IMG/VR virus record: IMGVR_UViG_3300029448_000072
Span: 1-47,255 of that record
DNA length: 47,255 nucleotides
Source of the DNA: a virus
Reading direction: 5' to 3' (one strand)
The notes beneath the pieces are model-generated. The model made no database searches and was not told the origin of the DNA. It saw nothing but the letters and a program-made list of their open reading frames with translations. Below, in pieces: positions 18,961 through 20,473 of the stretch. Within the stretch, counting starts at the first letter, position 1. Each line of letters begins with the position of its first letter. A program made the position numbers and the translations under genes.

Positions 18961-19031
18961 ATTTCTATGTTTCACTTCGTTCCACATCATTTCCTAATAA
19001 ATCAAGCAATAAACCTCGGAGGATTACCATT

Positions 19032-19157
19032 ATGAGCTTACATTTTGACATCTACACTAAAGTTTGGGTAGTATTATTAAAGGGTACTGAACACTTAATG
19101 TACTACTCTGCCTCCCGTGCACAATGTATAGATTATATGCATAACATGGGCGGATAA
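19032..19157 (+). CDS. micro-protein (41 aa)
   Basis: The frame starts after GGAGG and the 13-base motif GATTACCATTATG, reads MSLHFDIYTKVWVVLLKGTE and ends MHNMGG. It is short, mixed hydrophobic/polar with two tyrosines and one cysteine, and no domain is recognisable. The same 13-base initiation context appears before the next micro-gene at 19250, which supports both as real genes. Role unknown. Confidence 0.5.
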   Translation: MSLHFDIYTKVWVVLLKGTEHLMYYSASRAQCIDYMHNMGG

Positions 19158-19165
19158 CAGTAATT

Positions 19166-19216
19166 AGAGCTAAGTCTTTAAACTATCTTACTATGACCGC
19201 AAGTAAGTACAGCTCT
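19166..19216 (+). ncRNA. two-tier hairpin before micro-gene
   Basis: AGAGCT (19166-19171) pairs with AGCTCT (19211-19216), and nested inside CTTACT (19187-19192) pairs with AGTAAG (19202-19207) around a 9-base loop. Both stems are perfect. The element fills the 92-base gap between two micro-genes and is followed by TTTT and then AAGGAG, so it could act as a 5'UTR control element, an attenuator or a processed RNA. Confidence 0.45.
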
Positions 19217-19249
19217 TTTCATCATTAATTAAACAAGGAGATTACCATT

Positions 19250-19411
19250 ATGGATAAACTAAGGTCTATTAATCGAAGTATCGAAAAGTTCTTTGCTATA
19301 ATACTTGAGTGTATAGTATTTACTATGTTCTCAATGATAGGTATTATGGGAATAGCTGCACTTATATTATTAATTAGTATAGCTGTTCAGACAACTATAG
19401 ATTTATTATAA
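19250..19411 (+). CDS. single-pass membrane micro-protein (53 aa)
   Basis: Start at 19250 follows AAGGAG and the shared GATTACCATTATG context. It reads MDKLRSINRSIEKFFAIILE, then a hydrophobic segment (about residues 14-46; ILECIVFTMFSMIGIMGIAA, ILLISIAV) and ends TTIDLL. Basic head plus membrane helix fits an inner-membrane micro-protein, perhaps a host-takeover or superinfection factor. No homology is claimed. Confidence 0.55.
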   Translation: MDKLRSINRSIEKFFAIILECIVFTMFSMIGIMGIAALILLISIAVQTTIDLL

Positions 19412-19904
19412 TCTGTACATCACCTAAAGGGAAGATAAAAGGACACGAACCTGCAAATGTAATGATAATATGTAGGTCTTCTCAAAATTTCGTTCCAACG
19501 AGATGTCTTAAATGGTAATCAAGACAGAGCGGGTGTTAGTAAAAATAGTATACTCTCTCCTTTAGTTGTATATATACATCCGCTCAAATTTTATATTTTG
19601 AGACAAGGCTTGGCAAGTCTTAAGTGATTAATATATAATGGATGCTGTGTACAAAGCGAGCAGAGCGCTCTCCATTGCATAATTGTTCTAGCCTATAAAG
19701 ATGCTGAATAGTATAGACCTACGGAGAACAAAGGTGTTGGTATTTAAATGAAATGATATTATGTATTAATTACAGTCTCAATTAATTGTGATTTTCTTTG
19801 AGAATGCGTATACATGTTGATAGTTAGATTCTATCTTTAAAGACGTGTAGTGGAGTTAGGTAGGTGTAGTGCACTGCAAGTCCTAATAAATCACAATATT
19901 ATAT
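19412..19904 (+). ncRNA. ~490-nt noncoding region with many inverted repeats; candidate large structured RNA
   Basis: No reading frame is supported here, but complementary segments are abundant: ACCTGCA/TGTAGGT (19449-19455, 19471-19477), TGTCTT/AAGACA (19504-19509, 19521-19526), GAGCGGGTGT/ACATCCGCTC (19527-19536, 19576-19585, one G-U), AATGGA/TCCATT (19637-19642, 19671-19676) with GAGC/GCTC nested inside, TTGTTCT/AGAACAA (19683-19689, 19725-19731) enclosing CTATA/TATAG, ATTAATT/AATTAAT (19765-19771, 19780-19786), and a perfect 10-bp long-range helix ATTGTGATTT/AAATCACAAT (19785-19794, 19888-19897) enclosing AGAT/ATCT and TTAGG/CCTAA. Two pairs of these overlap and so compete. The region ends directly at the tRNA. 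Its size and tRNA adjacency recall GOLLD and ROOL RNAs; identity is not shown. Part of it could instead be an origin of replication. Confidence 0.6.
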
Positions 19905-20014: not shown

Positions 20015-20473
20015 ATGATTGCTATAGTAGAAGAATCAACATATAAAGTACCTGCTGTAATATGTGATTTAGATGGAACGTTGGCGTTAAAGCATAACGA
20101 TAGAACTTGGTACGATGCTAGTACCTGTGATAGAGATGTAATAAATACGCCTATTAAAACTTTAATAGATTTAATGTGGGATTCTCACCATATTATATTT
20201 TGTTCAGGTCGTGAAGAAAAGTTTAGAGAACCAACAATGACATTTTTAGATAAATGTTTTAATGGTAAGCTAGATAATCACGACTTTGATTTATTTATGC
20301 GTCAGACTAATGATTATCGTAAAGATTCAATAGTAAAGCATGAAATATACTTAAATCAAATTAAACCTAATTGGAATGTTAATTTTGTGCTAGATGACAG
20401 ACGACAAGTTGTTGATATGTGGCGTAATGCACTTGGACTAACAACGCTACAAGTAGCAGAAGGGAACTTTTAA
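20015..20473 (+). CDS. polynucleotide 3'-phosphatase (T4 Pnkp phosphatase-domain homologue)
   Basis: A 152-residue HAD-family protein closely matching the C-terminal phosphatase domain of T4 polynucleotide kinase: DLDGT (Asp18, Asp20), SGR (Ser64-Arg66), TNDYRKDSIVKHEI (Lys103 region), FVLDDRRQVVDMWR (Asp127-Asp128) and the ending LQVAEGNF. It would remove 3'-phosphate or 2',3'-cyclic phosphate from nucleic-acid ends. The kinase half is absent and no RNA ligase is visible. It lies 38 bases after the tRNA and the structured noncoding region with AGAGGAG as ribosome site, suggesting RNA or DNA end repair. Strong family match. Confidence 0.82.
   Translation: MIAIVEESTYKVPAVICDLDGTLALKHNDRTWYDASTCDRDVINTPIKTLIDLMWDSHHIIFCSGREEKFREPTMTFLDKCFNGKLDNHDFDLFMRQTNDYRKDSIVKHEIYLNQIKPNWNVNFVLDDRRQVVDMWRNALGLTTLQVAEGNF

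Follow-up and report, generated by a model that had tools for sequence, protein, structure and literature searches.

A very probable structured RNA at the GOLLD locus of a marine phage, with a hairpin loop complementary to the ribosome-binding sites of adjacent small genes

GOLLD, ROOL and OLE are RNAs that assemble into RNA-only complexes, which in the case of GOLLD and ROOL are cages, and phage tRNAs are found near the genes of both of these (PMC12286853). The expression of GOLLD goes up during lysis, its binding to ribosomes has been reported from pull-downs, and the functions of all three RNAs are unknown (PMC12286853). Nor is it known what GOLLD and other giant phage RNAs of this kind do in the cell. 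Some antisense RNAs, those of type I toxin-antitoxin systems among them, act by blocking ribosome-binding sites.

The RNA described here is encoded by a marine phage, in a window (the whole stretch of DNA that was analysed) of 47,255 nucleotides, which makes up most of an IMG/VR virus record of 47,574 bases. An initial annotation of the window had pointed to a gene-free stretch of almost 500 bases that ends exactly at a tRNA and is followed by an RNA-end phosphatase, and this layout was borne out. The locus, which lies entirely on the plus strand, is composed of the following features:

19032-19157, plus strand: gene A, a conserved 41-aa protein (16 of 41 columns invariant in 11 sequences)
19250-19411, plus strand: gene B, open reading frame for a 53-aa hydrophobic peptide with one membrane span (by inspection)
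19412-19904, plus strand (ends approximate): very probable structured RNA, without genes, with helices covarying in relatives and fold z scores
19905-19978, plus strand: tRNA-Met (CAT), directly 3' of the RNA region
20015-20473, plus strand: protein with a PNKP-type 3'-phosphatase domain (Pfam HAD_PNKP, E=4.7e-45; PHROG polynucleotide kinase)

The RNA region is thus bordered by gene B on its 5' side and by tRNA-Met on its 3' side. It holds no open reading frame of at least 40 aa, its longest run without a stop is 52 codons and no reading frame crosses it, which rules out a coding region. The protein of gene A is conserved and non-membrane, and no relatives of it were found in bacterial genomes; the peptide of gene B varies between phages and had no match in Pfam and PHROG searches.

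Taken alone, the window sequence gives weak evidence of structure, with stem number and fold energy both near chance. The two stems quoted in the initial annotation are present, namely GAGCGGGTGT (19527-19536) with ACATCCGCTC (19576-19585), 10 bp including one G-U, and ATTGTGATTT (19785-19794) with AAATCACAAT (19888-19897), a perfect 10 bp; its use of the number of stems as evidence does not stand, since stems of at least 8 bp number 4 in the region and 3.2 in shuffles. The comparison of fold energy with shuffled sequence, which it had proposed as a check, is likewise weak for the window RNA (MFE z = -1.64 to -1.85, with 3-6 of 100 shuffles equally good), and is clearer in four relatives (L002, L003, L053 and L061, introduced below), with plus-strand z scores of -2.4 to -4.0. 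The structure is therefore convincing only through relatives, by their z scores and compensatory changes.

Syntenic contigs of uncultured phages (L numbers below) were collected via terminase and phosphatase searches. The terminases of relatives with the syntenic region are 88-92% identical to that of the window phage, and a comparable RNA is present in L002, L061, L053 and L003, the first three of which retain it without any tRNA (L061 partly by inspection). The plus strand folds better than the minus strand in four of five phages, and in L003 the two strands score equally. At least four helices (H1, H2, H3 and the closing helix of D3) keep their pairing through compensatory changes among the relatives, as the initial annotation had proposed to check:

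19449-19477, plus strand: hairpin H1, ACCUGCA/UGUAGGU, changed to ACCAAU/AUUGGU in L002, L061 and L067
19504-19526, plus strand: hairpin H2, covarying stem UGUCUU/AAGACA, loop AAAUGGUAAUC (19510-19520) with retained UGGUAA
19527-19585, plus strand: hairpin H3, 10-bp stem covarying in six phages, loop including the anti-Shine-Dalgarno-like CUCUCUCCUUUAG (19553-19565)
19598-19781, plus strand: domain D3, covarying closing helix UUGAGAC/GUCUCAA
19785-19897, plus strand: domain D4, closed by the perfect 10-bp helix of the initial annotation, window sequence only

The stem of H3 reads GAGCGGGUGU/ACAUCCGCUC in the window and AGGGUAACUCG/UGAGUUACCCU in L003, GGCAGGUAUUU/AGAUACCUGCC in L002 and UGGGGUAGAACAGU/ACUGUUUUACCCCA in L087, and CCUUUA in its loop stays constant despite the changing stem. 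The closing helix of D3 becomes UGACUUG/CAAGUCA in L053 and UUUGGUUUG/CAAACCAAA in L002 and L061; that of D4 is without covariation support because no homologue was found. Chance inverted repeats, which the stem counts of the window would allow, are ruled out by these compensatory changes. The proposal of a structured noncoding RNA is well supported by the covarying helices, by the lack of a reading frame and by the retention of the RNA in tRNA-less relatives, and 19412-19904 very probably encodes one. Beyond the known relatives, pattern scans of IMG/VR DNA with the H3 stem and with the H2/H3 pair returned only chance-like matches, and in similarity searches against cultured-phage DNA the matches listed were confined to the query's tRNA end. 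The loops of H2 and H3 are predicted to be mostly unpaired in the RNA alone; a 7-nt complement of the H3 loop, CUAAAGG, lies at the 5' end of the RNA (within 19423-19430) and might mask that loop.

Other possible structured elements were seen around genes A and B. Beside gene A, a motif of about 45 nt recurs, GAUUCGGRGC..GGGN..GCYUGGCAACAGAA..NCCC, which resembles a small structured RNA; it occurs in L002, L053, L055, L058 (twice), L061, L063, L064 (twice), L067, L087 and L088, with no Rfam match in the loci scanned. Between genes A and B lies a hairpin, GAGCU..CUUACU..AGUAAG..AGCUC (19167-19215 in the window), whose outer stem is AAGCC/GGCUU in L003 and AAGUG/CACUU in L053 and seems to covary. 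The tRNA-Met copy of L003 (6832-6900) lacks five D-arm bases present in the window and may be decaying.

The initial annotation had likened the RNA to GOLLD or ROOL in size and position while giving it no name, and the Rfam search that it had suggested agrees with the latter, since no family matches. The 3' core of GOLLD (RF02032) is absent from the window both at the gathering threshold and at E<=10, no ROOL covariance model matches up to the same E value, and tmRNA is found neither by Rfam models (including E<=10) nor by ARAGORN, so that membership of all three is ruled out. The likeness holds for the place. A true GOLLD core (191-205 bits) lies between tRNA-Met and the phosphatase in L067, L087, L088 and L137, which belong to the same clade, and six distant relatives (L005, L026, L028, L031, L035, L036) have GOLLD near the same PNKP-type phosphatase. 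Hairpins of the window RNA recur there as well: in L087 the H2 and H3 pair lies in the interval from the tRNA to the GOLLD core, and the corresponding interval of L067 holds H1 and an H2-like hairpin. Given GOLLD in close relatives, no core in the window and hairpins in common, the window RNA is, as far as sequence comparison tells, distinct from GOLLD and no member of its family, although it occupies the GOLLD locus and has accessory modules in common with it. The tRNA/GOLLD locus can, on this comparison, host a different structured RNA assembled from common accessory hairpins.

The same common hairpins, together with GOLLD itself at this locus in four close relatives, could also mean that the window RNA is a shortened or diverged GOLLD-type RNA, acting as a self-assembling particle or scaffold, as would suit the RNA-only cages that GOLLD forms and its encoding near phage tRNAs (PMC12286853); the ribosome-site complementarity described below would then be secondary or incidental. 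We regard this as unlikely, given the missing core and the fact that no GOLLD 5' domain could be aligned to the window RNA by sensitive blastn.

At three of the distant GOLLD loci, the stretch from GOLLD to the phosphatase holds Rfam tmRNA matches of just 76-81 nt (L026 6648-6723, L028 4640-4720, L031 3802-3882), which correspond to a tRNA-like piece lacking the message part. Tiny genes for hydrophobic peptides adjoin GOLLD in several of these phages (L026 6509, L028 4502, L031 3659, L035 118, L036 4865).

A feature overlooked by the initial annotation, and new here, is the complementarity of the loops to ribosome-binding sites; in the mostly open-access literature that was searched, no report of it was found for GOLLD/ROOL-type RNAs. 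H2 carries in its loop AAUGGUAAUC, whose reverse complement, the 10-nt GAUUACCAUU, directly precedes the starts of gene A (19022-19031) and of the tiny hydrophobic gene B (19240-19249). This unusually long complement lies in a loop predicted to be exposed; the loop is not anti-Shine-Dalgarno and matches the spacer ahead of the two start codons. By length and duplex energy, the starts of genes A and B rank first and second for the H2 loop among the 62 Shine-Dalgarno-preceded starts of the window, ranks that are descriptive and not a pre-planned test, because the ranking was done after the pattern had been noticed. For the H3 loop, genes A and B are not singled out in the window.

Across the relatives, which are few and related, the best start for the H2 or H3 loop is usually one of these two genes: gene A for H2 in L003, L053, L088 and L055, and gene B for H3 in L061 and L002. 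In L087 the two best starts for H3 are gene A, matched over 16 nt, and gene B, matched over 11 nt. Dinucleotide shuffling of the entire RNA gave 0-15/500 in six phages and was not significant for L061, L088 and L002. The site base after GAUUACCA (AUACCA in L061) is U, C, A, U and C in the window, L003, L053, L061 and L067, and its loop partner is A, G, U, A and G, so that site and loop change in step, through three kinds of pair across the five phages. Swapping loops and sites between phages shortened the match of H2 to gene A (p=0.002) and marginally weakened its energy (p=0.05), in this small set of related phages; for H3 and gene B, the same test found no significant co-variation. In L002 the H2 motif is gone, and so is GAUUACC from the gene A site. 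In unconstrained joint folding H2 paired with the sites for three sequences (the window, L061 and L067), to some extent for L053 and not for L003; it was dropped as proof of long-range pairing, since shuffled RNA often pairs too and in most cases the result was no better. Ribosome-site antisense was not seen as a general property of GOLLD loci: in the six distant ones, the best genuine complement is 10 nt and adjacent tiny genes never exceed 8 nt.

From these matches, the RNA probably targets ribosome-binding sites. It might do so without any particular target, as a general anti-Shine-Dalgarno decoy whose CUCUCCUUUAG loop would bind a wide range of leaders, from phage or host, or sites associated with ribosomes; the CCUUUA of H3 is constant whatever the adjoining leader, the best starts for H3 in the window belong to several unrelated genes (8 nt), and GOLLD has been reported bound to ribosomes (PMC12286853). 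Such a decoy is quite improbable, however, as the H2 loop specifically fits the spacer of genes A and B, and the H3 loop in L087, L002 and L061 matches beyond the Shine-Dalgarno core, best at these same neighbours. That the region is only a tRNA leader, spacer or untranslated stretch without own function and with incidental hairpins, as its position against the tRNA and the near-chance stem number of the window could suggest, is very unlikely in view of its retention in the tRNA-less L002, L061 and L053, its covarying helices around conserved loops and the better folding of the plus strand in four of five phages (L003 equal).

The reading that we somewhat favour is that the region encodes a structured phage RNA of modular build, at the locus that holds GOLLD in close relatives, and that this RNA represses, either in cis or in trans, the translation of the tiny genes beside it. 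The RNA probably controls the translation of genes A and B, because a conserved hairpin loop exactly complements their ribosome-binding sites. Once folded, the RNA would offer the H2 loop, and in some phages the H3 loop too, to the leader sequences of both genes and base-pair with their ribosome-binding sites, and this pairing would block ribosome loading and so limit the output of protein A and of the membrane peptide B. The RNA may act as part of a single transcript, since both genes, the RNA, the tRNA and the phosphatase share the plus strand, or equally well as a separate molecule. A wider proposal, that in this phage clade the RNAs of the GOLLD locus regulate translation, as large modular RNAs with loops fitted to the ribosome-binding sites of neighbouring tiny genes, is possible but doubtful. 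If true, it would provide the first concrete cellular task for part of a GOLLD-linked RNA, and loops that vary with neighbouring ribosome-binding sites at this locus make a specific hypothesis that is cheaply testable.

Compared with known systems, the window RNA resembles type I toxin-antitoxin and other antisense RNAs in having a loop complementary to a ribosome-binding site and a tiny hydrophobic peptide gene next to it, and in these traits the peptide of gene B recalls those of type I toxin-antitoxin systems or lysis peptides. It differs from them in lying downstream on the same strand, in being much larger, in its position within the tRNA/GOLLD locus and in having the conserved, non-membrane gene A as a further putative target. 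With ROOL it shares the size class and the position near phage tRNAs (PMC12286853), but it lacks an Rfam match at a useful score. Unlike GOLLD, the window RNA has no GOLLD core, measures about 490 nt and lies upstream of the tRNA, GOLLD being downstream, and the six distant GOLLD loci have no comparable complement at their adjacent tiny genes. Like GOLLD, it is a large structured phage RNA beside tRNA-Met and a PNKP-type phosphatase, at a locus where close relatives have GOLLD and where, in L087, the GOLLD core adjoins the H2/H3 hairpins.
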